The notes below the pieces were generated by a model. That model did no database searches and was not told the DNA's origin. It worked only from the letters and a program-made list of their open reading frames with translations. From a virus, in the IMG/VR virus record IMGVR_UViG_3300033149_005152, positions 1 through 64,000 of that record: a stretch of DNA of 64,000 nt; one strand, given 5' to 3'. This document shows positions 20,323 through 63,309 of this stretch, in pieces (the first letter of the stretch is position 1; the number at the start of each line of letters is the position of its first letter). The position numbers and the translations under genes are program-made.

Positions 20323-20383
20323 AAAAATCACCTCTAAATTTTACTTTTCATAATGAAAAATATTGTTATTTTTTATTTTTTTA

Positions 20384-21295
20384 TTAAGTTGCGGCAGCCG
20401 TATCCGCTTCCATTTCCTTTAATGCTCTTTTTTCTTCCATAAACTGAGCCATATGTTCCGGCCTGGTGGGATTATCCTCTGCTATCTTTTTCAATTGTGC
20501 CAATTTAGCCTTTTGAGATTCCAACATAGTAGATTTATCCTCACGTGTTTCTGAAGCACCAGACCCACCCGTTCCTGCCGCCTTTTTAGCCCACTTCGGC
20601 ATATCTTCTCTTATCCCATCAGATACAGATTTCTCTTCACCCTTTTGATTAATATATATCCATTTTTCATTTTCATCATCATATTGTAAATTATCTACAA
20701 ATAATTTAGATACATTACTAATATCTACGGCACCAGCAGCTTCACATGCGGCAGACAATAATCTATCTCTTTCAGCAAGTAAAGATTTTGTCTCAGCATT
20801 TTGTCTCATTTCTTCCGCCATCTGTACTCTTTTTTCCAGCTGTCTTATTCTTTTTGCTTGTTCCTTTTTTTCTCTAGCAGCTTCTTCAGCCTCTATTTCC
20901 CCCAATAATTCCTCTATATCTTCATCATCATAATCTTCTTCATCATCATCGTAATCTTCATCGTCATAATCCTCGTCATCATCATAATCATAATCATAAT
21001 CTTCATCGTCATAATCCTCGTCATCGTAATCTTCATCGTCATAATCCTCGTCATCATAATCTTCGTCACCTAATTCTTCATCCAGAACATCAAAAAATTC
21101 TTTAGATGCTTTAATTATCTCAGCATCATCCTCTCTTTGACTTTGTAATTGTTTTATTAACTTGTCTTGTTCTTTTATAGTCGTTTCTAATTCATCTAGC
21201 TTTTTATTAAACTTTTTATCATCCCCAGCTTCTCCCCTCTCGTCAGCAAGAAATGAATTCTTATAATAATTAAAAATAATATCCCATAAAACCAT
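20384..21295 (-). CDS. Scaffold-like protein with acidic repeats
   Basis: 303 aa. Residues 76-125 are about ten copies of DDEDY, encoded by 15-base repeats (about 20924-21065). They are flanked by coiled coils and an Ala/Glu-rich C-terminus. Position immediately before the major capsid gene, extreme acidity and coiled coils fit a capsid scaffolding protein. Confidence 0.65.
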   Translation of the reverse strand: MVLWDIIFNYYKNSFLADERGEAGDDKKFNKKLDELETTIKEQDKLIKQLQSQREDDAEIIKASKEFFDVLDEELGDEDYDDEDYDDEDYDDEDYDDEDYDYDYDDDEDYDDEDYDDDEEDYDDEDIEELLGEIEAEEAAREKKEQAKRIRQLEKRVQMAEEMRQNAETKSLLAERDRLLSAACEAAGAVDISNVSKLFVDNLQYDDENEKWIYINQKGEEKSVSDGIREDMPKWAKKAAGTGGSGASETREDKSTMLESQKAKLAQLKKIAEDNPTRPEHMAQFMEEKRALKEMEADTAAAT

Positions 21296-27184: not shown

Positions 27185-30100
27185 TTAAAAACATTCTTTA
27201 CTACCACAAAAATTACAATATGAACAACCATCTGAATCAATATACATCATATTACCACACTTACAAAAAACACCAGACAAAGCATCTTGTTCTATAGGTT
27301 CTTCTTTTTCCAATTGTGATATATCCTCCAAAATAACATCTGCAATGGCATCAGGACCAGAAGAATATATTTTACCATTACTAAAAGAAGTAGCTTTACC
27401 TCCTATACTATCTAATTGATCAACAACATCCCTAACATCAGTCCCATTTTTTAATGCCAATGTAATTAATCTACCAACAGCCTCAGACCACGCCGTAACA
27501 TCTGATCCTCCCTTACCAAAATTCAAAAACGTTTCTCTCAACCTACCACGTCCCTTTAAAATATCACAAATTATTCTCCTATCCTTCTCACATAATGAAT
27601 AATTTTTAGTAACATAAGCATTACCATGCGGACTTTTTACTTTAACTGTCTGACCATACATTATATCAAATCTAGTCTTAAAATCATCTGGTAATACGGA
27701 CTCCCATGCTTGAATTCTACGACTATCCTGTCTATAAACAGTAATCCCTTTCACTCCTTGATCATGAGAATCCATAAAAGCCCTGGATACATCTTCAACA
27801 GTAGCATCCTTAGACAAATTAATTGTTTTTGAGATACCAGAATCAATATATTTTTGAAATACTCCAACCATTTTTACGTGATCTTCGGGCTTAATTTCTG
27901 AAGATTTCACAAAATAAGACGGAAGCTCATATTTACCAGTTTTTTCTCTATAATTCTTTACAAGTGGGTGCAAAACTTTTAATTTATTGTCTATTATATT
28001 CTTAGAAAATTCCCATTCAAAATTAGGTTCAATACCACTTGAACATCCAGCAATTATACTACAACTCCCAGTGGGAGCCATACAAGATACAACGGCATTA
28101 TCCGATCTTCTATAATTATTACAACGCCGTTTAAAAAACTCCATAAATTTTTCAGCAAAATCTATAGACTCTCGAGAACCATATTTTAATCCTAATTTTA
28201 TTAACAAATCTCCCCACCCCATCAACCCCAGTCCAATCTTTCTTGTTTCTTTTGTCATCTTTTCGATCTCTGGAGTAGGAAAAGATGAAACGTCAATTAC
28301 ATTATTTAAAAATTGAATACCAAATTTTATTAATTTGTCAAATAAATCCCAATTTATTGAAGTCATACCTTCAGCCCATACGGGAATATCAACCAATTTA
28401 CTTACGTCTATACTACCAAGATTACAATTATGAACAATAAAACCGTTAGCAATAAAATGTTTAGACTTGGGAATTATAAGGTCATATACCTCACGAAGCC
28501 CAATCTTATTCACACTTTTTATCCTAACTAAATCTTGGATTTTATCATATCTATATTTTGGATTCCAATTAAATTTATTTAATTTATAAGAATTTAAAAA
28601 CCCAATTAAACGCATAAACCTAAAAGCATTTCCCTGAGTAACTGCCAACTTATATTGATTCCTTCTATTCAAACTTTCGTCAAATTTGCTTTCATAAATA
28701 GTAGAATGAATCCCGAATCTAATAAGCAAAATTTGAATATCAATCAAAAATTTCTTACTAGTACTAAATAAAAAAACTTGATTATTTTGTTTACCCGAAA
28801 TAGTACCATCTGCCGTAAATAACCCCTTTAAAAAGGAAATTTGAAAAACGGGATTTTCCATCCATATACATGTTGGTAATCTTCTTTCATATGCCTTTCC
28901 TAATTTAACTCCCAATTTCAATAATTTATCTCGTGCATCTTTTTTACCAGTTTGTAACTGATAATTATTAGGAGTATTATACATAGGGACTATATCATAA
29001 CATTCAAAATAATCCAAAAAAACTGGTAATAATCTATCTTTTACTTCAAAATCACCATCTTTTTCATTAAATGATATGCCAACTATTTTCTCAGTAAACC
29101 AACCGTCCCCATGTATCCAACCCAACATTTCGGCAACCAGATTATTTTCTTTTTCCGGAATAACATAAGAATTTAATGGAATACGAAGCAATTGTTCCTT
29201 ATTAAATTCTGTAACAGGAAGCCAATTTCCATCTTTATCTAAAAATAAATGATCTGAAGTTGTTTTTATTTTATATCCCTCAAAAGTCTCTATTTCATAA
29301 ACCACTTTTTTACCACGTTTTAGACTTTTATAAACTGTTTCATAAAAGGGCATTCCCTCCAATTCAACAGCAACCATATCCCCCTTCTTAACATTCTTTA
29401 TGGCTTTCCAGCCGTCTTCACATAAAATTAAACTATCCTCATCCAAACATGATTCGTTAGGATAAAGAGGAAGCTCAGAACAAGGATTAGTTGCAGTTAT
29501 TAGACCATATTCTTTTAAAAGAGGATTATTTTTATTAATATTATCTAAATAAATTAAGCCAGGTTCGCCATTTAACCAAGCATTTTCACAAATTTTATCC
29601 CATATTTTCTTCACAGGAACTTCTGCAAATCCTCCTCCACCCCATCCATCAAAAAAATCATAACTATCATGAGAAAAAAGTAAATTATTAGTTTTTAAAG
29701 CCTGAAAAAACCATTCATCAACAGCGACAGATATATTTAAATTAGATAAACTATTTTCATTCCTCTTACAATCAATAAATTCCAAAATATCAGGATGCCT
29801 ATAATTTAAAATAGCTATCATCGCTGCACGTCTTAATCCACCTTGTTTTATTTGTTCAGAAAATACATCAAACATATTCATAAAACTCACAGGGCCAGAT
29901 GAAAACCCCATTGTGCTTTTAATTCTTGATCCTTTCGGTCTTAATGGGCTAAAATCTATTCCTACTCCACCACCAACTTTAAATATTTTAGCCGTATCGC
30001 ACAGAGTTTTTAAAATACTTTCTAAAGAATCTTCTATACCTAAAACAAAACAAGCAGATAAATTATTTAGAGGTAATCCTGCATTCATGAGACAGGGAGA

Positions 30101-31636
30101 ATTATGAGTTACAAAACCATTTGCTATATAATTATGAGTTTTATCCACAGTTAGGTCAAATACAGGAGATATGAACTTCTTCCCAATATATATTTTCTCG
30201 TATAAATTATCTTGTAAATCACATAATTTATAAGTATAAGAATCCCTAAAATCAGAAATTTTATTAGCTAATTCCAAACATTTTTCCGTAGAAATAGCAA
30301 TTAAATCTTTATTCTCTTTACGACCACAAAATGGAGAAAACAATCTATAAGTAGCCATTCCCCTATTCTTACTTTGTCTATACCATTCTAAAATTTTATA
30401 CTTTTGATTAGGAATTCTCTGATTACTCTTCCCAACTTTTGAAAGCGAGGATAAAAAAGCTTTTTTACGTTCACTAATAAATCCTATTATCTTCTCAAAT
30501 CGCTCTAAAAAAGAAGAATAAATTCTCAATCTATAACCATTAACTTTACCACATTTTCTTTTTTCGCTAACTTTAGAATAAATACCCACCCCCAACAATA
30601 ATAATTGAACCTGCCTAATAAATTCTTCTGAAGAACTATAAAACTCTATATTTCCCTCAACTGATTTATCTTTATTTATACGTTCTTTATTCACGCAACC
30701 ATCCGCCTCAAATAAACCCCTCAAAAATCCACAAATTGAATCAAAATCACCTTCCAAAATCGCTGGTGGAATTTTCAAATTATCTGATGGCTTAATTAAA
30801 TTATTAATCTCCATAAATTCCCTAAAAGCCACTCGTGCAAACGAGATAACACCACAATTTTTATCTTTGATTTTAGTAAATTTAGGAGTAATCCCAAAAA
30901 TTCTAAAAATCAAATTATTTAAATACTCGCCCAAATCAACATCATCATAAAAATATGCTAACTTCAAATTTGAATTTTTATCTATATGCCCATCACCAAA
31001 ATAATAACCCAATAATTCTGCAAAATAAACATCTATATAATCTGGCAATTCAATATATTTTCTATTTGATCCATATCCATCCAGCGGAAATAATTCTTTA
31101 TTTCCTTTATTCAAAACATACTTTTCACTTCTATTACATAAAAATCCCATTTTTAAAGAAAGATAATCGTATTCTAAATCAATATCTTTTAACATTTTCC
31201 AAAGCAAATCTCCATTTTTATCAACCACCAAAAAACTATGTTCCGGAGTAGCATAAATCTGATAACCCGAAGTGGAAACAATTTCCCAAACTTCTTTTTT
31301 TCCATTTTTCCAAAATTTCCTCAACTCTCCATATCCCACATGAGAATAAAGAGATAAATTACCAAGTTCCTCCAAATCAACAACCCTTTTCAATCCTTTT
31401 CCAGTAGCTATCAATGAATCGGGACCAACACAATTTGGAGTAAAATATAAATTCTTCAATATCCACTGAAATTCTTTTTCTAAACCACCATCTCCATTAG
31501 ATATATGTTTCGCTATTCGGTCAAACATTTGCTCAGGAGTTTCTATAATATTACCTTCAACATCCTTTTGAAGATAACGCTTTTTTAAAACGAGTAAGGC
31601 ATTTTCACTTAAATTTTGCAATATATCACTCTCCAT
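27185..31636 (-). CDS. nrdJ: Class II (B12-dependent) ribonucleotide reductase with two inteins
   Basis: 1483-aa precursor. Removing the inteins (69-512 and 730-1070) leaves 698 aa. Family marks: PNSPCLMNAG, KVGGGVGIDFSPLRPKGS, NPCSELPLYPNES-CNLGSID and MAPTGSCSIIAG. A TSCPD-like domain follows, then a C-terminal zinc ribbon (CKCGNMM ... CNFCGSKEC). No small-subunit gene is nearby, consistent with the adenosylcobalamin class. It reduces ribonucleotides for phage DNA synthesis. Both inteins lie at catalytic or substrate-binding segments. No strong RBS before the ATG. Confidence 0.92.
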   Translation of the reverse strand: MESDILQNLSENALLVLKKRYLQKDVEGNIIETPEQMFDRIAKHISNGDGGLEKEFQWILKNLYFTPNCVGPDSLIATGKGLKRVVDLEELGNLSLYSHVGYGELRKFWKNGKKEVWEIVSTSGYQIYATPEHSFLVVDKNGDLLWKMLKDIDLEYDYLSLKMGFLCNRSEKYVLNKGNKELFPLDGYGSNRKYIELPDYIDVYFAELLGYYFGDGHIDKNSNLKLAYFYDDVDLGEYLNNLIFRIFGITPKFTKIKDKNCGVISFARVAFREFMEINNLIKPSDNLKIPPAILEGDFDSICGFLRGLFEADGCVNKERINKDKSVEGNIEFYSSSEEFIRQVQLLLLGVGIYSKVSEKRKCGKVNGYRLRIYSSFLERFEKIIGFISERKKAFLSSLSKVGKSNQRIPNQKYKILEWYRQSKNRGMATYRLFSPFCGRKENKDLIAISTEKCLELANKISDFRDSYTYKLCDLQDNLYEKIYIGKKFISPVFDLTVDKTHNYIANGFVTHNSPCLMNAGLPLNNLSACFVLGIEDSLESILKTLCDTAKIFKVGGGVGIDFSPLRPKGSRIKSTMGFSSGPVSFMNMFDVFSEQIKQGGLRRAAMIAILNYRHPDILEFIDCKRNENSLSNLNISVAVDEWFFQALKTNNLLFSHDSYDFFDGWGGGGFAEVPVKKIWDKICENAWLNGEPGLIYLDNINKNNPLLKEYGLITATNPCSELPLYPNESCLDEDSLILCEDGWKAIKNVKKGDMVAVELEGMPFYETVYKSLKRGKKVVYEIETFEGYKIKTTSDHLFLDKDGNWLPVTEFNKEQLLRIPLNSYVIPEKENNLVAEMLGWIHGDGWFTEKIVGISFNEKDGDFEVKDRLLPVFLDYFECYDIVPMYNTPNNYQLQTGKKDARDKLLKLGVKLGKAYERRLPTCIWMENPVFQISFLKGLFTADGTISGKQNNQVFLFSTSKKFLIDIQILLIRFGIHSTIYESKFDESLNRRNQYKLAVTQGNAFRFMRLIGFLNSYKLNKFNWNPKYRYDKIQDLVRIKSVNKIGLREVYDLIIPKSKHFIANGFIVHNCNLGSIDVSKLVDIPVWAEGMTSINWDLFDKLIKFGIQFLNNVIDVSSFPTPEIEKMTKETRKIGLGLMGWGDLLIKLGLKYGSRESIDFAEKFMEFFKRRCNNYRRSDNAVVSCMAPTGSCSIIAGCSSGIEPNFEWEFSKNIIDNKLKVLHPLVKNYREKTGKYELPSYFVKSSEIKPEDHVKMVGVFQKYIDSGISKTINLSKDATVEDVSRAFMDSHDQGVKGITVYRQDSRRIQAWESVLPDDFKTRFDIMYGQTVKVKSPHGNAYVTKNYSLCEKDRRIICDILKGRGRLRETFLNFGKGGSDVTAWSEAVGRLITLALKNGTDVRDVVDQLDSIGGKATSFSNGKIYSSGPDAIADVILEDISQLEKEEPIEQDALSGVFCKCGNMMYIDSDGCSYCNFCGSKECF
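28427..29449 (-). mobile_element. Intein 2 of the ribonucleotide reductase
   Basis: 341 aa (precursor residues 730-1070). It starts with Cys (CLDEDSLI) and ends in FIANGFIVHN before extein Cys1071 of CNLGS. DOD endonuclease motifs are at 837-847 (MLGWIHGDGWF) and 936-946 (LKGLFTADGTI). All splicing residues are present. Confidence 0.93.
30101..31432 (-). mobile_element. Intein 1 of the ribonucleotide reductase
   Basis: 444 aa (precursor residues 69-512). It starts with Cys (CVGPDSLIATGKG), has the TxxH-like B block (ATPEHSF), and ends in YIANGFVTHN before extein Ser513 of SPCLMNAG. LAGLIDADG motifs are at 208-218 (LLGYYFGDGHI) and 305-315 (LRGLFEADGCV), so the homing endonuclease looks intact. 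Confidence 0.93.
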
Positions 31637-39910: not shown

Positions 39911-42391
39911 TTAATCTCGCACCTTCACCTTTTTTGCATTTCTTTCCGCTATAGACCAATTTTCTCCCTCCCCAATCTCAAATAAAAATTTATGATTGCC
40001 CAATTCAGGAATAGATTTCCCCATTTTCTCAATCATAATATCCCTAACTTCTTCAACCAATTCAACAGGAGTTTCCACCATTAACGAATCATAAACGATA
40101 TTAACAGGATATGGAATTTCCATAAGGGACCTAGAAGTTAATTTTCCATTTGCAAACCTCCTTTCAAATTCATGAACTATATTATAATTAGCATCTTTTG
40201 TAACCTCAACAGCACAATGTTGAGGCAAAATATTTAATACCTGATTTCTCTGATGGAAATCTTTAATATTAAAATCAGGAAATCTCCTTTTATACCCAAA
40301 AGGAGTTACTACATACCCATTCTTTTTAACCTTCTTTAAAAGATTAGTCTGAAAATCGGGTATCTTAGGATAATGGGAATAAATTCTATCCTTAATTTCT
40401 GAAACCTTTTCAACATCTATCCCCAAACTACGAGCCATACCTGCATCCGTGCTACCATAAATAAGTCCAAAATTAACTATTTTAGCATCCCTCCTTATTT
40501 TCTTTAACTTATTATAAATATATATCTTTTTCTTATCGTTCTCATCCAACTTTTTAAATTTGTCAGTAGCACTTATTCTTTTTAATTTCAAATATTCTTC
40601 ATCATAAATAGCTATTGCCGTTTCATGATGAGCATCCCCTTCCCCCCCATACAAATTCTGAATTATTTTCTCTTCACCGCAAAGGACACCCAAAATAAAA
40701 ATCTCTATCTGACTATAATCAGCAACTATAAAAGTATATCCTTCTTTTGCCACAAATAAAGACCGAATTGAAATAGACTCTTTCTCATCCCCTAAATCAA
40801 TTTCCCCATCAGCAGGAATGTTCATAATATTAGGATCACTTGAAGAAGGTCTCAATGTAATAGTACCAATATCGTTAATATTGGTATGAATCCTACCATC
40901 AGGAGTCTTTGAAAATTCAATTAATGCTTTTATATCCTTCGTCAACAATTTGTTTATACGTTTATATTTTGAAATGTAAGAAACAACGGGGTGCTCATCC
41001 ATTAATGCATTCAAAACCTCTTTATCCGTTGAAGGAGCACCTTTTTTCGTATATTTAACCTCAGTCAAATCAAGATCATCAAATAACAATTTCCTTACTT
41101 GTAGATGTGAATTTGGATTAAATTCGTCATCACCAGTTTCTAACTTTATTTTATTTAAAAAACCATCTTCCGCCCTTTTCAATTTCCTTTGCACATTTTT
41201 AACCTGGGATAAATTTATTCCTATTCCTCTCAATTCCATCTTCAAAGATACAAGTAAATTTCTCTGCATCCTTTTCTGAAAATAGGGCCAAACTTTTTCA
41301 GTTCTCATTTTAGAAACTATTTTTGGAAATATCCTCGCTAATGCATCAACATCACTTGCACCATAATTTATTAAAATATCCTTCGGTGCTTCAACCATTT
41401 TCTTTTTATACGCCTCGACAGGAAGCCAATAAAAACCCATCTCAGGAGCAAATAAAGAAACCAATGTATCTAAATCACGACTTCCACTTGTATTTTCATC
41501 AGTTAAATAATACATGGACAAAGTATCAAAAAACTCTCTTAAAGAAAATACATCAAAACCATTCTGGTATAAAAATCTTAAATCAAACTTAATATTTTGG
41601 CCTACAAGTTTATTTTTACTAATCAATTTATTAATCAATCTTATTAAAGTCGGATTAATTCCCAACCTATAAACAGGATAAATATATCCCACTCCCGATT
41701 TTTTAGTAAATTGAATAGACAATATTCCATTATCCCAATAAGTTAATCCGGTAGTTTCTAAATCAAAAAACAAAAATTCATTCCTTTGAGTCAATTCAGT
41801 AACTATTCTATTTAATTCTTTATTACTTTTTATCAAAATAGGTTTAGTAACAACAGAGGGTATTATTTTTTCTCCCAAATAAACCTTATAAGCAAATTTT
41901 AAATCCTCATACATCAGATCAACTTGATAAGGTTGACGTGCGGCAGGATGATATGTAGCAATAAGTTTAGCACCCATATATTCATATATCTGCCCTCTTG
42001 AATTCTTAATTTCTGCTTTACGTGTAAAAACTTTTAAAGCGCAAGCTCCTAATGCAATAATTAATTTAGGTTTTATTTTATTTATAACAAAATCTAAATA
42101 TGGTTTACACTGTTTACACACTTCATCATCCGGTTTTTCATTTCTCACATTGTAACACTTCACCACATTATCAAAAAATAATTCAGAAATATTAAAACCA
42201 GCTTTTTTTAATCCAGCCCTTATTCTTCCACCAGCTTGTCCATCAGGATGAAACGGTATATTATGTTCAGCCTCATTTGCACCAGGATTTTGACCCACCA
42301 CCATCACCTCAGCATGAATATTCCCTTTTCCCCAAACAGCCTTATTGAATTCATATTGACAATCATGACAATATTTTCTTAACTTTTTCAT
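39911..42391 (-). CDS. DNA polymerase I fused to uracil-DNA glycosylase domain
   Basis: 826 aa. Residues 1-170 are a family 4/5 UDG-like domain (CHDC pair, VVGQNPGANE, PFHPDG, LIIALGACAL, TYHPAA), as in the SPO1 polymerase. A DnaQ-like 3'-5' exonuclease follows (FFDLETTGL), then a family A polymerase: VADYSQIEIFIL (motif A), RRDAKIVNFGLIYG (motif B) and IVYDSLMVETP (motif C, where the usual HDE is YDS). It is the replicative polymerase. Its start overlaps the RemA-like gene stop (ATGA). Confidence 0.95.
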   Translation of the reverse strand: MKKLRKYCHDCQYEFNKAVWGKGNIHAEVMVVGQNPGANEAEHNIPFHPDGQAGGRIRAGLKKAGFNISELFFDNVVKCYNVRNEKPDDEVCKQCKPYLDFVINKIKPKLIIALGACALKVFTRKAEIKNSRGQIYEYMGAKLIATYHPAARQPYQVDLMYEDLKFAYKVYLGEKIIPSVVTKPILIKSNKELNRIVTELTQRNEFLFFDLETTGLTYWDNGILSIQFTKKSGVGYIYPVYRLGINPTLIRLINKLISKNKLVGQNIKFDLRFLYQNGFDVFSLREFFDTLSMYYLTDENTSGSRDLDTLVSLFAPEMGFYWLPVEAYKKKMVEAPKDILINYGASDVDALARIFPKIVSKMRTEKVWPYFQKRMQRNLLVSLKMELRGIGINLSQVKNVQRKLKRAEDGFLNKIKLETGDDEFNPNSHLQVRKLLFDDLDLTEVKYTKKGAPSTDKEVLNALMDEHPVVSYISKYKRINKLLTKDIKALIEFSKTPDGRIHTNINDIGTITLRPSSSDPNIMNIPADGEIDLGDEKESISIRSLFVAKEGYTFIVADYSQIEIFILGVLCGEEKIIQNLYGGEGDAHHETAIAIYDEEYLKLKRISATDKFKKLDENDKKKIYIYNKLKKIRRDAKIVNFGLIYGSTDAGMARSLGIDVEKVSEIKDRIYSHYPKIPDFQTNLLKKVKKNGYVVTPFGYKRRFPDFNIKDFHQRNQVLNILPQHCAVEVTKDANYNIVHEFERRFANGKLTSRSLMEIPYPVNIVYDSLMVETPVELVEEVRDIMIEKMGKSIPELGNHKFLFEIGEGENWSIAERNAKKVKVRD

Positions 42392-47232: not shown

Positions 47233-47249
47233 TTATTAATTTATTAAAT

Positions 47250-48071
47250 TTAATCAGAATCAACTTCCCGCATTTTTATTCCAGCAGCTAACAAACCCTT
47301 TTGCGTATAGGCAGCATTGAATTTTTTTCCAGCCTTCCCCGAAAATTTCAACTCAACCTTTTTTGGAGAAGGTTTCCTTACAACTTTCCCCTCTATTATC
47401 TCATCCTTATAATTCACATAAACAGAAGTATGTTTATCAAGCATATCAATTTCAGCTGGAACTAAATCATCAGGCTCATCCTCTTCATCAGGCTCATCTT
47501 CTTCATCAAGCTCATCTTCTTCATCAAGCTCATCTTCCTCATCAGGCTCATCTTCTTCATCAAGCTCATCTTCTTCATCAGGCTCATCTTCATATTTAAC
47601 TTCAATCCCAAATTCATTATAAGCTTCTTCGTCATAAGTTTCCACATCATCATCATCCCACTCAATAGTAACCACCCTTTTATTCCTCTTTCCTCCTCCC
47701 TCAACGGCCGTAACCACACCCATCTGTCCAGTATTTGGGTCTCTTACAATATCATCAACCTCCAATTCTGAAAAATCAGGGTGTTCAAAACTAATTCCCC
47801 CTTCATCAGTCTCATCTTCCCCATTATCCCCACCAAGATCAGCATTATAAACATCTTCTTCAATATCAAGATCAGGAGGCTCAACATTAGAAAGAACTTT
47901 AGCAAGACTTTTAAATGATTTTTCAGTTCTCTCCGATAATTTATCCACTAAATCAATTAATACAGTCAATGATTCCTGAATCGTCTCAAAAACACTTTTC
48001 TCAACATTCCTTTCTACATTTTTCATAATAGATTTTTTTTCAGCTACCTTAGGTCTGCCCCGTTTTGCCAT
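47250..48071 (-). CDS. AT-hook protein with acidic repeats
   Basis: 273 aa. AT-hook MAKRGRPKV at residues 1-9, a helical region, a Tudor/KOW-like segment (DIVRDPNTGQMGVV ... VTIEWDDDDVETY), then about eight DEEDE[LP] repeats encoded by 18-base DNA repeats, and a basic beta C-terminal domain. First gene after the promoter at 48129-48156. It may bind AT-rich phage DNA or serve as a histone-like or transcription factor. Confidence 0.65.
   Translation of the reverse strand: MAKRGRPKVAEKKSIMKNVERNVEKSVFETIQESLTVLIDLVDKLSERTEKSFKSLAKVLSNVEPPDLDIEEDVYNADLGGDNGEDETDEGGISFEHPDFSELEVDDIVRDPNTGQMGVVTAVEGGGKRNKRVVTIEWDDDDVETYDEEAYNEFGIEVKYEDEPDEEDELDEEDEPDEEDELDEEDELDEEDEPDEEDEPDDLVPAEIDMLDKHTSVYVNYKDEIIEGKVVRKPSPKKVELKFSGKAGKKFNAAYTQKGLLAAGIKMREVDSD
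47468..47590 (-). repeat. 18-bp tandem repeats within coding sequence
   Basis: About seven imperfect copies of an 18-base unit (TCATCAAGCTCATCTTCT on the + strand) encode the DEEDE[LP] repeats. A coding repeat, not a regulatory array. Confidence 0.75.
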
Positions 48072-48400: not shown

Positions 48401-48604
48401 TTATTTAATTTTAAATTTTTCTTGTAATAACATATATTTTCTTTTTCCAAGTACAGCTAAATCATAAAATCCTAATTTATTAGCCAGATCAACAACACAA
48501 TCATAGTCATACATATTACATAAACCACTTTTCCTTATATATTCGTATTGTTTTATAACATTATGCTTGTATTCCTCGTTTTCTTCAACCATATCAGTTA
48601 CCAT
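48401..48604 (-). CDS. Hypothetical small protein
   Basis: 67 aa from MVTDMVEENEE (start uncertain). The segment YDCVVDLANKLGFYDLAVLGKRKY looks like a small helical domain. Last gene of the right-hand block. Not recognised. Confidence 0.55.
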   Translation of the reverse strand: MVTDMVEENEEYKHNVIKQYEYIRKSGLCNMYDYDCVVDLANKLGFYDLAVLGKRKYMLLQEKFKIK

Positions 48605-49115
48605 CTTTTTTTTCTTTACCCTTATCAAAATCGAAATCTTCAAATGGATTTTTTTCTCCTTTAATTACATCCTCATTATATTTTCCAAACAATTCAAGAA
48701 ACTCATTTAAAAACTCGTCTACTTCCACATCTTGCGATTCATCTTTTAACTCCCCCATAATTTTTTCTATGTTGTGTACTCCATTTTTTAATTCTTTCAT
48801 AATTTCTGAATAACGACGTTTTATATCTAAAATAAATAAACGCTTAATAAATTTTACTTCTTCTACCATTTTATCACTATTCGTAACTATTGAAAGATGT
48901 ATTATACTATCTAAAAGAACTAATAGCAACATATCTCTATTAAAACAATAATTTATCATGAAAATACGAAAATAACGATTTTTATCTTCCCTATTTTCAA
49001 GTTCTTCTGTTCTTATAGTCAATTCTTTGTTTTTATTTATTAAAGCAGTTTCAACTTCATTAAATCTTTCATTTATTTGATCTATTACTTTTTGTAATTT
49101 ATCCTCATCTATCAT
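48594..49115 (-). CDS. Helical hypothetical protein
   Basis: 173 aa, almost entirely helical with a coiled-coil N-terminus (residues 5-40), and an acidic/Lys tail. GGAGG lies before the ATG. Function unknown. Confidence 0.65.
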   Translation of the reverse strand: MIDEDKLQKVIDQINERFNEVETALINKNKELTIRTEELENREDKNRYFRIFMINYCFNRDMLLLVLLDSIIHLSIVTNSDKMVEEVKFIKRLFILDIKRRYSEIMKELKNGVHNIEKIMGELKDESQDVEVDEFLNEFLELFGKYNEDVIKGEKNPFEDFDFDKGKEKKDGN

Positions 49116-49139
49116 CTTTCCTCCATTTTTTTAATATTA

Positions 49140-49283
49140 TCAAATTAATCTTACATTTTCGATAAGATAATCAAGAACTTCATAAAAAGTTTGGGTGTCA
49201 TCATCATCAATTTGACAAATATCACAAATACCCTCAGCAATTTCTTTCATTACTTCATTTTCTTCATCTTGTTTTGTTATCAT
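49140..49283 (-). CDS. Small acidic protein
   Basis: 47 aa with a CDIC pair in an acidic helix. AAGGAG precedes the ATG, inside the end of the upstream gene (20-base overlap). Not recognised. Confidence 0.55.
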   Translation of the reverse strand: MITKQDEENEVMKEIAEGICDICQIDDDDTQTFYEVLDYLIENVRLI

Positions 49284-49503
49284 TATTTTCTCCTTTATCT
49301 TTTTCTGATTTGATTCTTTCTATTTCTAATTCAACTTTTTCTATTCTCAAATCAAGAAAATCATTATCATTTCTTAATCCAACAATACTTAACTCGTTTG
49401 CCATAATAGTACCTCTCCAACGATTATAAAACATTATAATTCTAAAAGTAGCATATACATCAGCTATTATAACCAAAATAAGTATTATAACTACCCATTC
49501 CAT
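49264..49503 (-). CDS. Membrane-anchored coiled-coil protein
   Basis: 79 aa from MEWVVIIL (AAGGAG upstream). Transmembrane helix at 2-18, then a charged coiled coil. Resembles spanin-like or phage inner-membrane accessory proteins in layout only. Confidence 0.55.
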   Translation of the reverse strand: MEWVVIILILVIIADVYATFRIIMFYNRWRGTIMANELSIVGLRNDNDFLDLRIEKVELEIERIKSEKDKGENNDNKTR

Positions 49504-49516
49504 TATTTTCTCCTTT

Positions 49517-49666
49517 TTATCCACAATAAGGATTGTCTAAAAGATTAAATCCAGAAATATCAATTGATATTTCCTTCAAAACCTCCGCAACTTTTTCATC
49601 CCACCAATCGCACCATATCTGATCTTTATCTATAATAATCATCATTTGTTCTCTTTTTTTGGTCAT
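49517..49666 (-). CDS. Hypothetical small protein
   Basis: 49 aa, Trp-rich acidic middle (IWCDWWDEKV). AAGGAGTTAAA precedes the ATG. Not recognised. Confidence 0.55.
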   Translation of the reverse strand: MTKKREQMMIIIDKDQIWCDWWDEKVAEVLKEISIDISGFNLLDNPYCG

Positions 49667-49667
49667 T

Positions 49668-49853
49668 TTAACTCCTTAATTTAATGTTATCTACTAACTC
49701 GATATAATATTCCTCTTTTTTACGATGATCTAATTCATCCCCCATTTCTCTCAATATATCATCAATTCGATCATAACAACTACTACCTTCAAAACCAAAA
49801 CCCTCAATAGAAAAATCCCCGTTTTTATCAATAATTATTTCCCAACGTGCCAT
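49668..49853 (-). CDS. DUF2997 family protein
   Basis: 61 aa. IIIDKNGDFSIEGFGFEGSSCYDRIDDILREMG has the family pattern: a beta hairpin with 'GxxxIEGxGFxGxSC', then a helix. DUF2997 genes are typically found beside DUF1257/Ycf35 and Ycf46-like AAA genes, and both are present in this operon. Molecular role unknown. Confidence 0.75.
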   Translation of the reverse strand: MARWEIIIDKNGDFSIEGFGFEGSSCYDRIDDILREMGDELDHRKKEEYYIELVDNIKLRS

Positions 49854-50143
49854 TATTTCATTCCTCCTATCCTTTGCTTATATTCCATTAAAGCTTCATA
49901 TCTTTTTTTATCCCTAATTAATTCTTTATAGCTCCATATCCAAAACCTACAAATATCATGATCATATGTATTACAAATTTCATCAAACTTATATCCATTG
50001 TACCAGCTTAACTCATTTTCTGCATTCATTTTATAACATAAATCAATTAACTCAATTCTTCGCCTAAATACCCATTCATTTCTATACATCATATAAAAAG
50101 CGAAAAGAGTGGAAATACATATTAAAAATATAAATATAAACAT
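49853..50143 (-). CDS. Small membrane-anchored protein
   Basis: 96 aa. Residues 1-19 are a transmembrane helix; the rest is a soluble helical domain rich in Tyr/Arg. It lies between the DUF2997 and DUF1257 genes. Not recognised. Confidence 0.6.
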   Translation of the reverse strand: MFIFIFLICISTLFAFYMMYRNEWVFRRRIELIDLCYKMNAENELSWYNGYKFDEICNTYDHDICRFWIWSYKELIRDKKRYEALMEYKQRIGGMK

Positions 50144-50154
50144 TTTGTCCCTCC

Positions 50155-50529
50155 TTATGCCATTACTTGTAATTTTATCCTACCATTTTCAATTACTTCT
50201 GCATCAGAAAGTGATAATCCTTTTCTAAGAAATTTTTCAGTTAATTCCTCTTTTGTGTAGTTTTGTAAAATTTCTCTCTGTAAATTTTCATTATAATAAG
50301 TATCATAAATCATCTCATAAGTTCCATCCGGCATTAATTTGAAACCAAATTCAAATTCATGATTAAAACGACTATTTCCTTTTACTTTAATATCTACTTC
50401 TTTTGTTTCAGCATAACCTTTAATGGTTAATCCTTCTCCTATTTCAAATTGTAATCCTAAATCTTCCATTACTTTTGAGAGAGTGCTCAAATTACTTATT
50501 CTTGTTTTTGTTAATGTATAATGACTCAT
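50155..50529 (-). CDS. DUF1257 (Ycf35-like) protein
   Basis: 124 aa. Starts MSHYTLTKTRISNLSTLSKV, the hallmark of DUF1257, and continues with the family's two-layer alpha/beta pattern. Ycf35 is also encoded by red-algal plastids and cyanobacteria; its function is unknown. Here it shares an operon with a DUF2997 protein and a Ycf46-like ATPase. Confidence 0.85.
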   Translation of the reverse strand: MSHYTLTKTRISNLSTLSKVMEDLGLQFEIGEGLTIKGYAETKEVDIKVKGNSRFNHEFEFGFKLMPDGTYEMIYDTYYNENLQREILQNYTKEELTEKFLRKGLSLSDAEVIENGRIKLQVMA

Positions 50530-50540
50530 TTTTTATCTCC

Positions 50541-50705
50541 TTATTTAAAAGTATATCTTATTTTTACAAAAACGCTAGTAACTATCCAACAAAATAATAC
50601 TAAAAGAAAATTTATGTAAACATTATTATTAAAATAATCACTTATTATTCCATCTCCTACTATAATCCACATAATTGCTATTATCCAAGCTTTCCAGAAA
50701 GGCAT
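50541..50705 (-). CDS. Small membrane protein
   Basis: 54 aa with two hydrophobic helices (about 5-22 and 31-47) linked by a polar Asn-rich loop. AGGAG before the ATG. Confidence 0.55.
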   Translation of the reverse strand: MPFWKAWIIAIMWIIVGDGIISDYFNNNVYINFLLVLFCWIVTSVFVKIRYTFK

Positions 50706-50714
50706 TTTAATCTC

Positions 50715-51008
50715 CTATATACCTAAAGAATGAAGTATTCGTAAAACATCAAGTACTTGAGAATCTGGTTGACCTTCTTTATCACATCCACAATAAGCAC
50801 ACATTTTATTCTTTTTAGAATGAACAAAATTATAATCTTCACATTCACAATTCCAAAATAATCCAGTTGTAAAAAATGTAAAACCATGTGAATCTATATG
50901 TTCTTCTATTTTTAATTCCTTTTTTAATTTATTATATTCATCATCTTCCGATTTTAAACCATAACTACTAAATCTAGTAAACTTCTTTTTTAATTCTTCA
51001 TACTTCAT
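50715..51008 (-). CDS. Zinc-finger protein of the AAA operon
   Basis: 97 aa from MKYEELKK (GGAG upstream). The C-terminal half has CECE ... CAYCGCD, a probable zinc site. Located between the DUF1257 and wHTH genes. Confidence 0.6.
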   Translation of the reverse strand: MKYEELKKKFTRFSSYGLKSEDDEYNKLKKELKIEEHIDSHGFTFFTTGLFWNCECEDYNFVHSKKNKMCAYCGCDKEGQPDSQVLDVLRILHSLGI

Positions 51009-51019
51009 TTCCAATCTCC

Positions 51020-51259
51020 TTATTCAGTTATATACCAACACCGTTGAATGACAAAACCACATTCACCATAAACTTCCTCATATCTTAATTTACCTTTACT
51101 CACCAAGGTAAATAATCTATCTCGTAAATAAGTTTCATAGGCCTGGCGATCCCCACGTAATTGAGCAAGTTGATGAGTATTACAACCTTGATTATTCTTC
51201 ACCAGTTGTAGCAATTCCTTTTGACGCTTTTTACTATTGTTATGACGAAAATACGGCAT
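51020..51259 (-). CDS. Possible winged-helix protein
   Basis: 79 aa. A basic start, then helix-turn-helix-like LLQLVKNNQGCNTHQLAQLRGD and a beta wing (LVSKGKLRYEEVYG). May regulate the operon or act as a DNA adaptor. Confidence 0.5.
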   Translation of the reverse strand: MPYFRHNNSKKRQKELLQLVKNNQGCNTHQLAQLRGDRQAYETYLRDRLFTLVSKGKLRYEEVYGECGFVIQRCWYITE

Positions 51260-51271
51260 TCTATCCTCCTT

Positions 51272-52225
51272 TTAATCAAATTCTATTTTCCTTTTAAATT
51301 GTCCTGTAATTTTAGAAATATCACTTACAGTCTCTGCCTTTTCTCTTATTCTTGACAATATTTCAGCTAATTCACTTCTTGTTCCCTCATTTTTTTTATA
51401 ATCATAAGAATCTACATTCTTCAAATGTCCCTTTAATTCTTCAAGTTGTTTCTCAACTGTCTCATCACCTACAAAATTCAAACTTTTAAAATACTCAATA
51501 AAATTTTCCATGGTACTAATGTTTTTGTTAGAAATTAATTCATTGTTATCTAATTTCTTTTTAAGCATATCACACAATTCAGTTGTTTGCAAACGCAATT
51601 CAGCGACTATATCATCAATAAATTCATCAATAAGGATTTTAGATTTTTCCCGATATATCTCTGCTAATTTTTCATTTTCTGCCTGCGCCTCTAACGCTTC
51701 ATTATCAGTTACAAATACTCCATCATTATTGGATATAGCAAATAGAATCCAGTCAAAAGAAAATTTAGTTCTTATCCTCTTTGCTATTGGATATAACGAT
51801 CTTATTTTATCCACAATACTTATTCCAGACTTTTTCTCCCATTCCATATATTCCTTTATCATTTCCTCCTGTATTTCTCTATACTCATCAATAAATTCTT
51901 CTACACATTGATAAAATTCAGATTTTAATTCTTCCAACTTAGAAAGTAAATCAGGCAAATTCTTCTTAGGGATAAAATAGTGTTTTCCTATAGGAAACTG
52001 GAAACCATGTTCAGATACACATAATCTTGTCCTCGTATCAATAGAATTAAATTTCCCTACTAGTCCTTTAGGAATAAGACGTTTTCTACCTAAAGAATAA
52101 AATTCAGGAGCTTCATCTAAACCTAAATCTTCTTTATCTAATCTTACCTTTCCTTCCCATTTGGAGATATTAACATCAATCAATACTCCTTCCGTAAATA
52201 ATTTCCCAAAATTTAATTTTTCCAT
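51272..52225 (-). CDS. DUF3150-like protein, partner of the AAA ATPase
   Basis: 317 aa. LIDVNISKWEGKVRLDKEDLGLD followed by YSLGRKRLIPKGLVGKFNSIDTRTRLCV and a long helical C-terminus fits DUF3150 proteins, which occur next to MoxR/AAA+ genes. It lies directly downstream of the AAA gene and is probably its substrate adaptor or regulator. Confidence 0.65.
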   Translation of the reverse strand: MEKLNFGKLFTEGVLIDVNISKWEGKVRLDKEDLGLDEAPEFYSLGRKRLIPKGLVGKFNSIDTRTRLCVSEHGFQFPIGKHYFIPKKNLPDLLSKLEELKSEFYQCVEEFIDEYREIQEEMIKEYMEWEKKSGISIVDKIRSLYPIAKRIRTKFSFDWILFAISNNDGVFVTDNEALEAQAENEKLAEIYREKSKILIDEFIDDIVAELRLQTTELCDMLKKKLDNNELISNKNISTMENFIEYFKSLNFVGDETVEKQLEELKGHLKNVDSYDYKKNEGTRSELAEILSRIREKAETVSDISKITGQFKRKIEFD

Positions 52226-52306
52226 TATTTACTCCTAGTCGTTCATTTTTAATAATAAATAATTCCTCTATAAGCATCAAATTTTCTTTTTATAATTAAA
52301 TCCCCC

Positions 52307-53866
52307 TTAAAGTTCTATTTTTCTCCCTGATTTTTCTTTCTTTACTTCCTCAACAACATTAGCCGAAACTGCAATACCATCCAATCTTTTACGCATGTGA
52401 TCTAAATCATTTCTCATCGCAATAGATATTGGTTTTATATTCTCATAAGCATCTGCTATAAATTCAGTATTAACTTCCTTTCCCCTATCAAAAGCCTCGA
52501 ACATAGCTTGTATAATACCTTGCTCAATTTCGGCACCTACAAAGTTATTAGATAAACCAGCTAACAATTTTAAATCAAAATCCTTTGGATTTCTATTCCT
52601 TTTTCTAATATGAATAGAAATAATCTCCATTCGCCCCTTATATCCTGGCAAATCCGCCCAAAATATCTCATCGAATCTACCTTTTCGTAAAAAATGTGGT
52701 GGTAATCCTTTAATATCATTTGCAGTAGCCACCCATATAATAGGATCAGTAGATTCTTGCATAAAAGTTAAAAACATTCCTATGATCCGAGCAGTAGTTC
52801 CAGAATCGCTTCTACCCGATGATTCAACCCCCTGAAAGGCCTTATCAAACTCATCAGCGAATATAACAACAGGAGCTATAGCTTTAGCTAGTTCAAAAAA
52901 CCGTTTTGTTTTTCCTTCAGATTCTCCATAAATTCCCGTAACAATATCGGCCATAGTAAATTTTAATAAAGGCATACCAAATTCATTTGATATAGCCTTC
53001 CCTATAAGAGATTTTCCTGTACCAGCAATTCCTACAATAAGAATGCCTTTTGGGAAGGGCAAACCATAATCTCTTGCCTCTTTAGACAAAATACTCTTTC
53101 TTTTTTTACACCAATTTTTAATATTTACTAAATCTCCTACGTCCGACATTTTCTCGTCAGTAGCATAATAATCTACACCAGACTTCTTTAAAGACTTTAT
53201 TTTTTCCTCTTGAACCATTTGAATACCTTTTTCTTCAAACCCTTTTTTACCTTCTCTTGATATTATATACGAAAGAGTATTTTCCATTTCTTCAGTAGTC
53301 AAACCTATTCCCGCATAAGACATCTTTTCCTTAACTTCATCAGTTATTTTTATTTTTGCATCTTCACCTCCACCTTTTTCGGCAATAATTGTATTAGCAC
53401 TTTCTATTACGTATTCTACTCTTTCTTTTAAATCATCTCTTGAAGGAAGAGCATATTCAAGTAATACAATTTGTTTTTCTAATTCTTCTGGTATTTTTAC
53501 AACGGATGACACAATTATTATACTTCTTTTTGTTGCTTTCAAGATATAAGATACATCTTTAAATTCTCTAGTTAAAATATTGTCCTTTTCTAAATAAGGA
53601 TGAAAATCCAATAGGACAAATATAGCTTTTCCATCATTTAATTCTTTTTTTTCTAAAATTTCCTTAATTATTCCCTTAGGATTACCGATAGAACTTTTTT
53701 TCTCATCATCCCATCCATCAGTAATTTTCCAAATAAAGATTTCTCTTTGTAGTTCTTCTGCTATGGCTTTGATCTCAGCTATTACTTTACTTTCTTCCCA
53801 TGTTCGCACCCACAAAAAAGGAAAGGAAGCCTTTATATATCCCTTCAAATTATCATAAAATCCCAT
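52307..53866 (-). CDS. Ycf46-like AAA+ ATPase
   Basis: 519 aa. Residues 1-150 are the Ycf46-type N-terminal degenerate AAA-like domain (IKASFPFLWVRTWEE, FVLLDFHPYL). The C-terminal AAA+ core has Walker A at 279-286 (GIAGTGKS), Walker B/DEFD at 337-341 (ADEFD), and an Arg-finger-like GRFDEIFWADLPG. First gene after a consensus promoter. Likely a remodelling ATPase acting with the DUF1257, DUF2997 and DUF3150 proteins. Confidence 0.88.
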   Translation of the reverse strand: MGFYDNLKGYIKASFPFLWVRTWEESKVIAEIKAIAEELQREIFIWKITDGWDDEKKSSIGNPKGIIKEILEKKELNDGKAIFVLLDFHPYLEKDNILTREFKDVSYILKATKRSIIIVSSVVKIPEELEKQIVLLEYALPSRDDLKERVEYVIESANTIIAEKGGGEDAKIKITDEVKEKMSYAGIGLTTEEMENTLSYIISREGKKGFEEKGIQMVQEEKIKSLKKSGVDYYATDEKMSDVGDLVNIKNWCKKRKSILSKEARDYGLPFPKGILIVGIAGTGKSLIGKAISNEFGMPLLKFTMADIVTGIYGESEGKTKRFFELAKAIAPVVIFADEFDKAFQGVESSGRSDSGTTARIIGMFLTFMQESTDPIIWVATANDIKGLPPHFLRKGRFDEIFWADLPGYKGRMEIISIHIRKRNRNPKDFDLKLLAGLSNNFVGAEIEQGIIQAMFEAFDRGKEVNTEFIADAYENIKPISIAMRNDLDHMRKRLDGIAVSANVVEEVKKEKSGRKIEL

Positions 53867-53869
53867 TGA

Positions 53870-53908
53870 TCAATTTCCTCCTTGTACTTCTCCATTATTT
53901 TCCATCAT
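53870..53908 (-). CDS. Possible 12-residue leader peptide
   Basis: MMENNGEVQGGN, with GAGGAGG before its start, lies between the promoter and the AAA gene. It may be a translated leader or only a spare RBS. Confidence 0.3.
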   Translation of the reverse strand: MMENNGEVQGGN

Positions 53909-53925
53909 TCGCCTCCTCATTAAAT

Positions 53926-53953
53926 ATTATACTATCTCTAAAAATTTTGTCAA
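53926..53953 (-). promoter_or_regulatory. Consensus promoter of the AAA/DUF operon
   Basis: -35 TTGACA (53948-53953), 16-base spacer, -10 TATAAT (53926-53931). A perfect sigma-70/SigA hexamer pair, 60 bases upstream of the AAA ATPase start. Confidence 0.88.
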
Positions 53954-61253: not shown

Positions 61254-63299
61254 TTAAATGAACCAAGATATTCTATTCGGAACTATCAAAACATTTAATG
61301 CACCAGTAGAAGTGAATGTAATAGCAATTTCTCCACTAATAGCTCGTATACCGGCTATTCTATTAGCAGTCAAAGCGGAAGCAATATCAATATCTCCACT
61401 AATAGCCCACACACCGGCTATCTTATTAGCAGTTAAAGCAGAAACAATATCAATATCTCCCGTTAATTTTTGCGAAAGTTTTAATTTATCCGCAGTTAAA
61501 GAAGAAGTTATAGCAATATTACCTATCATTTCTTTTAAAATCTTTATTTCAGTAGCATTTAAAGAAGAAGTTATATCAATACTACCTGTCATTGCTTTTG
61601 AAAGTTTTATTTTAGATGCAAGTAAATCAGACTCTATTTCTATAATACCATCCATTTTTTTTGAAAGTTTTATAACAGGAGCAGTCAAGGCAGATGTTAT
61701 ATTAATATCTCCGCCTAAGCACCATAAACCAGCCAAATTTGCTTCCGAACTAGATTTTATTATTACACTACCGTCTAATTTTTGCGAAAGTTTTAATTTA
61801 TCAGCAGTTAAAGTAGATTCTATCCCCATATTTCCCGTTACTTTTCTTAATGCCTTCATTCCAGTTGCAGATAATGCTAATGTAATATCTGATGAACCAG
61901 TCATTAAAATAGGAGCTGTACAAATAACAGACAAATAAGGATCATTATCAGTACCTTCATAATCACTTGCACGACACGACATCACATTTACATCTGTAGA
62001 ACCCCATCCAGGATTATCATCACTCAAATCCGCAGCACACCTAATACCATGACGTGTATTACCAGTAGTACTGATGCTATTCTTCCCCGCTGTGTTGAGT
62101 GTTATTTCGTTATAACCATCTGTAACGAAATCGCCATATGCTATGCTCCCAAAGTCTGTTGTACCGAGAGAGTCGAAGTCCCCATCTACTAAGTCGTCAT
62201 CGCTTGCTGGGTTTGACGAAACAATATGCGCCTTACCTTCATCTTCTGTGAAGGATTCTAAAGATTTATAAGTACCCCGCAAATGCCAGGATGCAGCAGT
62301 TACTACCCCAGACAAAGAAGATGTATCTACTACGAGAATTCCACGATACAAGTCGCTCCAATAATTGGTGTGGTTATATTTTCCTACCGCCCGCCACATA
62401 TACATAGCAGTATCAGTGTCATTATTAACATTACCAGACGCACTACGTATTGCAGACCAAGTAAGATCAGTAGACCCCTGTCCCACTTCCCCATCAACCG
62501 TTGTGCCTGGAACAGGATAAAAATCAGTATCACAATAAACAGGAAATACAACATCATCAAAAAAAACAGCAGGAATATATTTTGTTATAATAAGTTTTCC
62601 TTTTTTTAATTTTGCTGTAGTCCGAACAAAAGCACTTTTTCGCTCAATAGGGTTACTATCCCATATTCTTGCTTTTCCTAAAATAATTTCTCTTGATAAA
62701 CTATCTTTTTTCAAAATTGTTAATTTATCAGTTAATATAGTACCAGCTTCAGAAATAGAAATACTAGATGTCCATTCTCCTTGAAAATTAACTTCAAAAG
62801 AAAAAGAAACATCCTTTACCGGAGCCTTATTAATTCTAATTAATTTTCTTAATCTCGGTGGATTTCCATGATGAGAATTTAAAACGTAATCAACACCACT
62901 TCCAAAAGCATCTTTAAATATCACTTTATCTTGTTCTATAATACCACTTACTCTATTAATATCAACTGGCTTAACATCTAATGCAAATTCAGGCTCGTTT
63001 ATGATAGTTTTAGAAGATGCTCTAAGTCTTTCTTTATCAGGAGGAGATATTTTAAATTTACTGTTTGCAGAAAATTGTAAAACTTCATCTGAATTTTTTG
63101 GAAAAACACAAGAAAAAACAGACTTATCCATCTGCCATATTCCAGATTTTTCCTCAACACGCATATCTATATCTCGCCAGTCAGATTCTAAATCTGCAAG
63201 ATAATGAATTTGTTTAATATGAAATTCGGTAGTTAATCCTGGAGAAGTTCTTTTAAAAGTTTTACTATTCCAATTTCTTTTACTTATAATTTCTGCCAT
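61254..63299 (-). CDS. Tail-fibre-like protein with C-terminal repeats
   Basis: 681 aa from MAEIISKR (AGGTGG upstream). The N-terminal half is beta-rich, the middle contains a jelly-roll-like region (YRGILVVDTSSLSG ... DNDPYLSV), and the last 210 residues are about eight repeats of 22-27 residues of the type G-I-I-S-LTA-K-LS, probably a beta-helix or stacked sheet stalk. Probably a receptor-binding or baseplate-wedge protein. Confidence 0.7.
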   Translation of the reverse strand: MAEIISKRNWNSKTFKRTSPGLTTEFHIKQIHYLADLESDWRDIDMRVEEKSGIWQMDKSVFSCVFPKNSDEVLQFSANSKFKISPPDKERLRASSKTIINEPEFALDVKPVDINRVSGIIEQDKVIFKDAFGSGVDYVLNSHHGNPPRLRKLIRINKAPVKDVSFSFEVNFQGEWTSSISISEAGTILTDKLTILKKDSLSREIILGKARIWDSNPIERKSAFVRTTAKLKKGKLIITKYIPAVFFDDVVFPVYCDTDFYPVPGTTVDGEVGQGSTDLTWSAIRSASGNVNNDTDTAMYMWRAVGKYNHTNYWSDLYRGILVVDTSSLSGVVTAASWHLRGTYKSLESFTEDEGKAHIVSSNPASDDDLVDGDFDSLGTTDFGSIAYGDFVTDGYNEITLNTAGKNSISTTGNTRHGIRCAADLSDDNPGWGSTDVNVMSCRASDYEGTDNDPYLSVICTAPILMTGSSDITLALSATGMKALRKVTGNMGIESTLTADKLKLSQKLDGSVIIKSSSEANLAGLWCLGGDINITSALTAPVIKLSKKMDGIIEIESDLLASKIKLSKAMTGSIDITSSLNATEIKILKEMIGNIAITSSLTADKLKLSQKLTGDIDIVSALTANKIAGVWAISGDIDIASALTANRIAGIRAISGEIAITFTSTGALNVLIVPNRISWFI

Positions 63300-63309
63300 T
63301 AAATCCACC

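Follow-up and report, generated by a model that had tools for sequence, protein, structure and literature searches.

The operon and its recurrent proteins

The first 64,000 bases of the 98,585-base virus record IMGVR_UViG_3300033149_005152, here called the window, harbor an operon with genes for a Ycf46-type AAA+ ATPase, a DUF3150 protein, a DUF1257 (Ycf35-type) protein and a DUF2997 protein, with other small genes between them. An initial annotation, made from the sequence alone, had described these genes and suggested that they form one AAA+ remodelling machine used by the phage. As open reading frames (ORFs) read from the sequence all of the described genes are present, every one on the minus strand, and from AAA to DUF2997 the gaps between successive genes are, in order, 81, 12, 5, 9, 11, 11 and −1 bp. 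The four family assignments were confirmed by Pfam matches over the cut-offs and, for the N-terminal domain of the ATPase, by a hidden Markov model (HMM).

The ATPase (519 amino acids; 52307..53866, minus strand) matches the Pfam family AAA with E = 2.8e-26, over the curated cut-off. It is composed of a Ycf46-type N-terminal domain (approximately residues 1–235) and a classical AAA domain (residues 275–404), the label "Ycf46-type" denoting a domain architecture in common with a cyanobacterial homologue and not proven orthology to the Ycf46 of plastids or Synechocystis. With this homologue, from the Leptolyngbyaceae, the window protein shares 30% identity over 494 co-linear columns (query residues 16–492). 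An HMM built from 75 chromosomal N-domains recognizes the N-domain of the window protein with E = 3.5e-47, and the domain is common to 76 of 76 viral and plasmid ATPases tested and is also found in chromosomal copies. The nucleotide-binding motifs are intact and an arginine-finger motif is present (Walker A GIAGTGKS, Walker B FADEFDK, and RKGR); all 76 of the viral and plasmid relatives tested keep Walker A. Over its full length the protein is matched by phrog_8638 (7.9e-118), a phage family of unknown function. On the AAA tree it sits on a long, weakly placed branch.

The DUF3150 protein (317 amino acids; 51272..52225, minus strand), which is the virus-side partner of the ATPase, matches its Pfam family with E = 9.5e-25 and 87.8 bits (gathering score 24.9) over 253 residues. 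The AlphaFold2 (AF2) model, with a mean predicted local confidence (pLDDT) of 78, consists of an alpha/beta N-terminal part followed by a long helical bundle.

The DUF1257 protein (124 amino acids, starting with MSH; 50155..50529, minus strand) is encoded by a single copy within the 98.6-kb record and matches Pfam with E = 4.1e-9 and 37.0 bits (gathering score 22.2); the alignment of the family is too variable for pattern scanning. Its AF2 model (pLDDT 88.6) has the order beta-alpha-beta4-alpha-beta2. Weak PDB matches with E above 0.001, to a phosphoglucomutase domain and to KA1, hint at a TBP-like topology, and the top match in BFVD is an unnamed viral protein of 147 amino acids (TM 0.77).

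The DUF2997 protein (61 amino acids; 49668..49853, minus strand) is the smallest of the four and its Pfam match (E = 1.3e-5; 25.4 bits) lies just over the gathering score of 24.1. The family contains a cysteine, inside the motif GxxGxxC, that is invariant in 72 of 72 sequences and is kept in the window copy (GSSC).

Upstream of the ATPase gene the initial annotation had claimed a perfect promoter, and the predicted promoter TTGACA-16-TATAAT is indeed exact in sequence at 53926..53953 on the minus strand, approximately 60 bp 5′ of the AAA start. It is the sole perfect sigma70 match in the window (spacer 15–19; 0.15 expected from shuffling) and ranks first by score among the promoter sites of the region. 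Between promoter and ATPase gene a leader ORF of 12 codons (MMENNGEVQGGN; 53870..53908, minus strand) can be read from the sequence; it has its own GAGGAGG, includes the AAGGAGGA of the AAA gene and stops just 5′ of the AAA start, an arrangement that may permit translational coupling.

Recurrence in viruses, plasmids and chromosomes

In a tblastn search the window ATPase gave matches in 114 phage isolates; the window DUF1257 and DUF3150 proteins found none among phage isolates because both are too divergent. The order AAA-X-DUF1257-DUF2997, in which X is an unnamed protein of 208–243 amino acids and the third protein is DUF1257 or DUF1257-like, is present in the Rhizobium phages RHph_I4 and L338C, Aeromonas phage HJ05, Agrobacterium phage JP1 and Rhodobacter phage RcTiptonus. 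Pfam recognizes DUF1257 over the cut-off in RHph_I4 and HJ05, and DUF2997 in RHph_I4, HJ05, JP1 and RcTiptonus, the remaining members in these isolates being assigned with HMMs built in this analysis. Pseudomonas aeruginosa phage SM1 encodes AAA, X, one extra ORF, DUF1257 and DUF2997. The start annotated for its DUF1257 gene SM1_029 (approximately 5990–6444) is late, and the conserved MSHTSSIKSIKI of the N-terminus can be read in frame upstream of it.

As a single query against IMG/VR the window ATPase found no match; an alignment-based scan was needed to find the loci and yielded 80 further AAA loci. In 50 IMG/VR records searched whole with Pfam, all 19 placeable DUF1257 matches lay on the same strand as AAA and at most 5.8 kb from it, against a chance expectation of 3.8 within 8 kb, and all 15 DUF3150 matches over the cut-off lay at most 2.7 kb from AAA. 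With HMMs derived from the loci the gene arrangement was determined for 99 loci of viruses and plasmids; in the viral ones DUF1257 and DUF2997 co-occur with an odds ratio of 54 (p = 1.6e-10). IMG/VR and metagenome-assembled records are fragmentary, and the absence of a gene from them is uninformative.

Three families, unrelated or barely related to one another, hold the viral partner slot: DUF3150 in 23 loci, a short DUF3150-like family (34 loci) that includes Mycobacterium phage Dylan and its relatives, and family X (11 loci), with representatives in SM1, RHph_I4, L338C, HJ05, JP1 and RcTiptonus. On a tree of 113 AAA sequences the partner type needs two changes, the minimum for three states, and the neighborhoods of the 80 chromosomal AAA copies contain none of the three families. 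Between DUF3150 and the short family hhalign gives a probability of 19.5%, with a co-linear alignment at the N-terminus; judged from these sequences, the two are likely homologous. That the viral partners are lineage-specific and absent near the chromosomal copies would fit the counter-defence or host takeover that the initial annotation had suggested as a possible use, in which the AAA+ ring with DUF3150 or X as adaptor dismantles a host defence complex or enzyme early. The strong-looking promoter, the early-type gene region and the presence of the module on conjugative plasmids, which face the same defences, point in the same direction. We nevertheless regard this function as unlikely, because the engine as such is a cellular one with a wide distribution, because the cassette is stable across whole phage lineages and is not located in a variable accessory island, because PADLOC gives only a generic AAA similarity to IetA, and because nothing connects the cassette with any defence.

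A scan of genome collections revealed AAA copies in Planctomycetes, Chloroflexi, Armatimonadetes, Deltaproteobacteria, Spirochaetes, archaea and others. Both DUF1257 and DUF2997 are encoded at 26 of 80 chromosomal AAA loci, one of them at 4 and neither at 50 (p = 1.2e-16). A Fer4_12/radical S-adenosylmethionine (SAM) protein, carrying [4Fe-4S], accompanies DUF1257 or DUF2997 in 16 of the 16 chromosomal copies that have it. The fullest sets (loci L101, L107, L129, L167, L170 and L174) have HEAT/WD40 neighbors in all six cases and an Hsp70-like neighbor in all but L170; these neighbor families were checked with Pfam in L101, L129 and L167, the last of which also has GrpE. Such chromosomal sets of AAA, HEAT/WD40, GrpE-like, Hsp70-like, DUF1257, DUF2997 and radical SAM proteins have the appearance of a separate cellular system made up of several genes, seen in L101, L107, L129, L167 and L174, also in L098 and, without the Hsp70 gene, in L170.

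At two Spirochaete loci (L157 and L169) a trio of radical SAM, AAA and DUF2997 genes lies among contractile-injection-system genes, with a contractile sheath gene in both and with tube and eCIS_core checked in L169. A related plasmid copy (L090) is also in an injection-system context, and DUF2997 was not detected there. These loci, together with the effector loading that one report ascribes to Pvc15 (PMC11495950), would be in line with an assembly or cargo-loading ATPase similar to Pvc15/Afp15, the ring handling tail or ejected proteins in virion assembly. In the Rhizobium phages and in Pseudomonas phage SM1 the cassette is located 3′ of tail or lysis genes. In the window, however, its place is among the replication genes, at a great distance from the structural ones, it is also found on plasmids, which have no tail, and most chromosomal copies are outside loci for extracellular contractile injection systems (eCIS), which makes the assembly function quite unlikely.

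Plasmid copies occur on IncC backbones and on Vibrio, Rhodococcus, Paenibacillus, Bacillus, Treponema and cyanobacterial plasmids, some of them near ParA/ParB or rep genes; four of the plasmid copies are accompanied by a radical SAM protein. In the IncC backbone and in Vibrio conjugative plasmids (L093, L094 and approximately 700 plasmids) AAA, DUF2997 and a DUF1257-like gene are found a few kb from ParA/ParB-type genes and are annotated merely as "AAA family ATPase" and "hypothetical". The proximity to ParA/KorB (L094), ParB (L093) and ParA/CyRepA (L097), a ParB-like gene near the module in Mycobacterium phage Dylan and the recurrence of a DnaB-like helicase family in 16 loci raise the question whether the module aids the segregation or replication of large extrachromosomal DNA. 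We consider this decidedly improbable: chromosomal copies are also found in eCIS, Hsp70 and pilus-ATPase contexts, and an IncC essentiality screen, cited in PMC10954446, names parA, parB and orf053 as indispensable and not this AAA gene.

Since the loci are related to one another, the Fisher values given above overstate independence. More weight attaches to the test on gene position and to the agreement between isolates, plasmids and chromosomes, and from these gene arrangements the co-occurrence of AAA, DUF3150, DUF1257 and DUF2997 is not random. Early phage operons do mix unrelated genes, and the helix-turn-helix (HTH)-like, Cys-rich and transmembrane genes of this operon are not conserved; that all of its small genes are unrelated and only co-transcribed is, however, scarcely credible, and is refuted for AAA, DUF3150, DUF1257 and DUF2997 by a linkage seen again and again in phages, plasmids and chromosomes that are not related to one another. 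The initial annotation would have been contradicted if the genes had come together at random in other phages; instead they recur as a unit. Their presence on chromosomes, in injection-system loci and on plasmids, IncC among them, disagrees with a module specific to phages.

Other genes of the operon and the window

Between the DUF3150 and DUF1257 genes lie, all on the minus strand, ORFs for an HTH-like protein (79 amino acids; 51020..51259), a Cys-rich, zinc-ribbon-like protein (99 amino acids; 50715..51014) that matches phrog_18262 (3.6e-6), a phage family of unknown function, and a membrane-like protein (54 amino acids; 50541..50705) without a Pfam or phrog family match. A membrane-anchored-like protein (96 amino acids; 49853..50143, minus strand; phrog_25285, 4.1e-9, unknown function) is encoded between DUF1257 and DUF2997. 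The HTH-like ORF was described correctly in the initial annotation, the assignment to winged HTH proteins being weak (HTH_DeoR, E = 0.046, under the cut-off). Neither the HTH-like nor the Cys-rich protein has a homologue in approximately 180 other loci (phmmer, E ≤ 0.01); by this comparison they are not conserved parts of the module.

The close run of genes on the same strand extends past DUF2997 to approximately 48401, with ORFs of 49, 86, 47, 173 and 80 amino acids (48401..49666, minus strand) whose tight spacing or overlap makes them a probable continuation of the operon; none of them is part of the conserved module. The top terminator-like hairpin of the region is at 47233–47206. Reading of the translations identified a DNA polymerase, a primase and a helicase at 39.9–47.2 kb. 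The ORF at 39911–42391 (minus strand) appears by eye to be a fusion of a uracil-DNA-glycosylase-like protein with a family A DNA polymerase, a combination that is also annotated in SM1. A protein of 273 amino acids (47250–48071, minus strand) contains an acidic repeat (DEEDEPDEEDELDEEDE...) with almost exact units, and the ORF at 20384–21295 contains a second acidic repeat, of the Asp/Tyr type.

Elsewhere in the window a group I intron (Rfam RF00028, 62.5 bits; 20047–20325, minus strand) is located beside a capsid-like gene (18203–19210) and near an ORF (19327–19794) that by appearance encodes a LAGLIDADG-type homing endonuclease. The ribonucleotide-reductase-like ORF at 27185–31636 (minus strand; 1483 amino acids) apparently contains two inteins, recognizable as Hedgehog/Hint-type blocks in frame, and a protein of 684 amino acids (61254–63308, minus strand) with C-terminal repeat units (GSIDITSSLNA...) is probably structural. 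The terminase of the phage has one distant match among isolates, in Microcystis phage Mvi-JY20 (21.5% identity).

Related systems and proposed function

The initial annotation had described DUF3150 proteins as companions of MoxR-like ATPases, which is correct for plasmid pQBR55, where DUF3150 is encoded beside a CobS-like AAA_5 gene and a CobT-like VWA gene. Both are cases of DUF3150 next to an AAA+ ATPase on a mobile element, but the pQBR55 ATPase is of the AAA_5/CbbQ_C type and goes with a VWA protein, whereas the phage ATPase is a classical AAA protein with a Ycf46 N-domain: its best Pfam models are AAA (PF00004) and AAA_lid_3, no MoxR-type model (AAA_5, AAA_3 or CbbQ) matched, and a Pfam scan of ten operon proteins found no VWA domain. 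DUF3150 therefore goes with AAA+ engines of at least two types, and membership of the operon in the MoxR-VWA systems was rejected for want of a MoxR-type ATPase model and of a VWA partner. A survey of MoxR-vWA conflict systems in eLife in 2020 (PMC7159879) does not mention DUF1257, DUF2997 or Ycf46.

By placement of its locus the operon resembles the eCIS ATPases Pvc15/Afp15, AAA ATPases in phage-derived loci, and in the Spirochaete eCIS loci the ATPase is itself Ycf46-type, together with DUF2997 and radical SAM; among the operon genes, however, there are none for sheath, tube or eCIS_core. Pvc15-like ATPases are usual in contractile injection system loci. The AAA/subtilisin-like protease pair IetAS/SgiAT is likewise found on mobile elements, and PADLOC matched the IetA HMM with 1.4e-17; the N-terminal half of the phage protein differs, and IetAS membership was rejected because the operon contains no protease family and the similarity to IetA is of the generic AAA kind. 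The AAA domain is matched best by CDC48-type chains and by models of PAN, CDC48 and FtsH, with scores far under the family cut-offs, and differs from CDC48/VCP, PAN and FtsH in that the phage protein has one active AAA domain, a Ycf46-type N-domain and no protease.

In Synechocystis the operon duf2997-ycf35-fed7 (cluster g) encodes DUF2997 and Ycf35 together with Fed7, a [4Fe-4S] protein that binds a DnaJ-type protein and is required, or protective, under iron limitation (PMC4284462). In the phage, too, DUF2997 adjoins DUF1257, and in Synechocystis as in the cellular copies a [4Fe-4S] protein stands alongside; the published cluster has no adjacent AAA gene and no DUF3150, whereas the phage has DUF3150 and no ferredoxin gene. 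In red algal plastids ycf35 and ycf46 were lost concordantly (PMC5940233).

We propose, as the more probable explanation, that the operon is the viral form of a widespread and apparently undescribed AAA+ module, in which a portable remodelling engine is combined with a Cys-bearing small subunit and with an adaptor fitted by the phage; a search of the open-access literature found no paper describing the AAA-partner-DUF1257-DUF2997 unit, and no protein was found in which domains of two of the families are fused. The recurrence of the set across many phages, plasmids and bacterial chromosomes that are not related to one another makes a single protein machine driven by ATP the probable interpretation, as had been suggested at the outset and as is well supported, at the level of genes, by linkage and co-inheritance. 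The ATPase would assemble into a hexameric ring and exert a pull on its protein substrates or remodel them, with DUF1257 and DUF2997 as constant co-factors of the ring and the lineage-specific partner, here DUF3150, as the phage's own adaptor choosing the substrate. The thiol of DUF2997 may be the contact point with [4Fe-4S] or redox chemistry, which would be supplied by the adjacent radical SAM/Fer4_12 protein in cellular copies, by Fed7 in cyanobacteria and by the host in the phage, which has no such gene.

Several results weigh against this proposal. We know of no physical interaction or biochemistry for any part of the module. In sequence, family X and DUF3150 are not similar, and the standing of X as an equivalent adaptor is based on position and co-inheritance. 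Neither the predicted DUF3150 fold nor that of DUF1257 has a match in the PDB at E ≤ 0.001, both being without a convincing solved counterpart. The large viral clade with the short DUF3150-like partner, to which the Mycobacterium phages belong, is mostly without DUF1257 and DUF2997. The 50 of 80 chromosomal AAA loci without either gene within approximately 8 kb, and the lack of DUF1257 in 22 of 35 such genomes (drafts) that were searched whole, indicate that the set is not obligatory. Finally, the search of this phage record for a radical SAM Fer4_12 gene found none, and the Fe-S link is therefore indirect here.

As to the task of the proposed machine, the engine is attached to Hsp70/GrpE/WD40 sets, injection systems, plasmid maintenance and phage replication regions, and it therefore probably serves protein remodelling or maturation in general and is not tied to a single pathway. 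In the phage the likeliest use would be the remodelling of protein or nucleoprotein complexes in the replication phase, a guess from position; the location among replication genes and the DnaB-like family weakly favor it. More speculative, and in our opinion doubtful, is the idea that Ycf46, Ycf35 and DUF2997 constitute an unrecognized class of Fe-S- or redox-coupled AAA+ machines, common to plastids, bacteria, archaea, plasmids, injection systems and phages, in which the DUF2997 cysteine would be the carrier or acceptor of a group or radical that comes from a [4Fe-4S] partner and the viral adaptors (DUF3150, the short DUF3150-like family and X) would re-target the machine.

Ycf46 and Ycf35 have been orphan genes of plastids and cyanobacteria for decades. 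The finding joins annotations that are listed apart in databases, and it places Ycf46, Ycf35 and DUF2997 in a mobile cassette of cultured phages (Pseudomonas aeruginosa SM1-like, Rhizobium and Rhodobacter) and of the IncC backbone, which offer simple genetic systems for elucidating their function. It suggests that a single AAA+ engine with interchangeable adaptors may be at work across phages, plasmids, injection systems and chromosomes.

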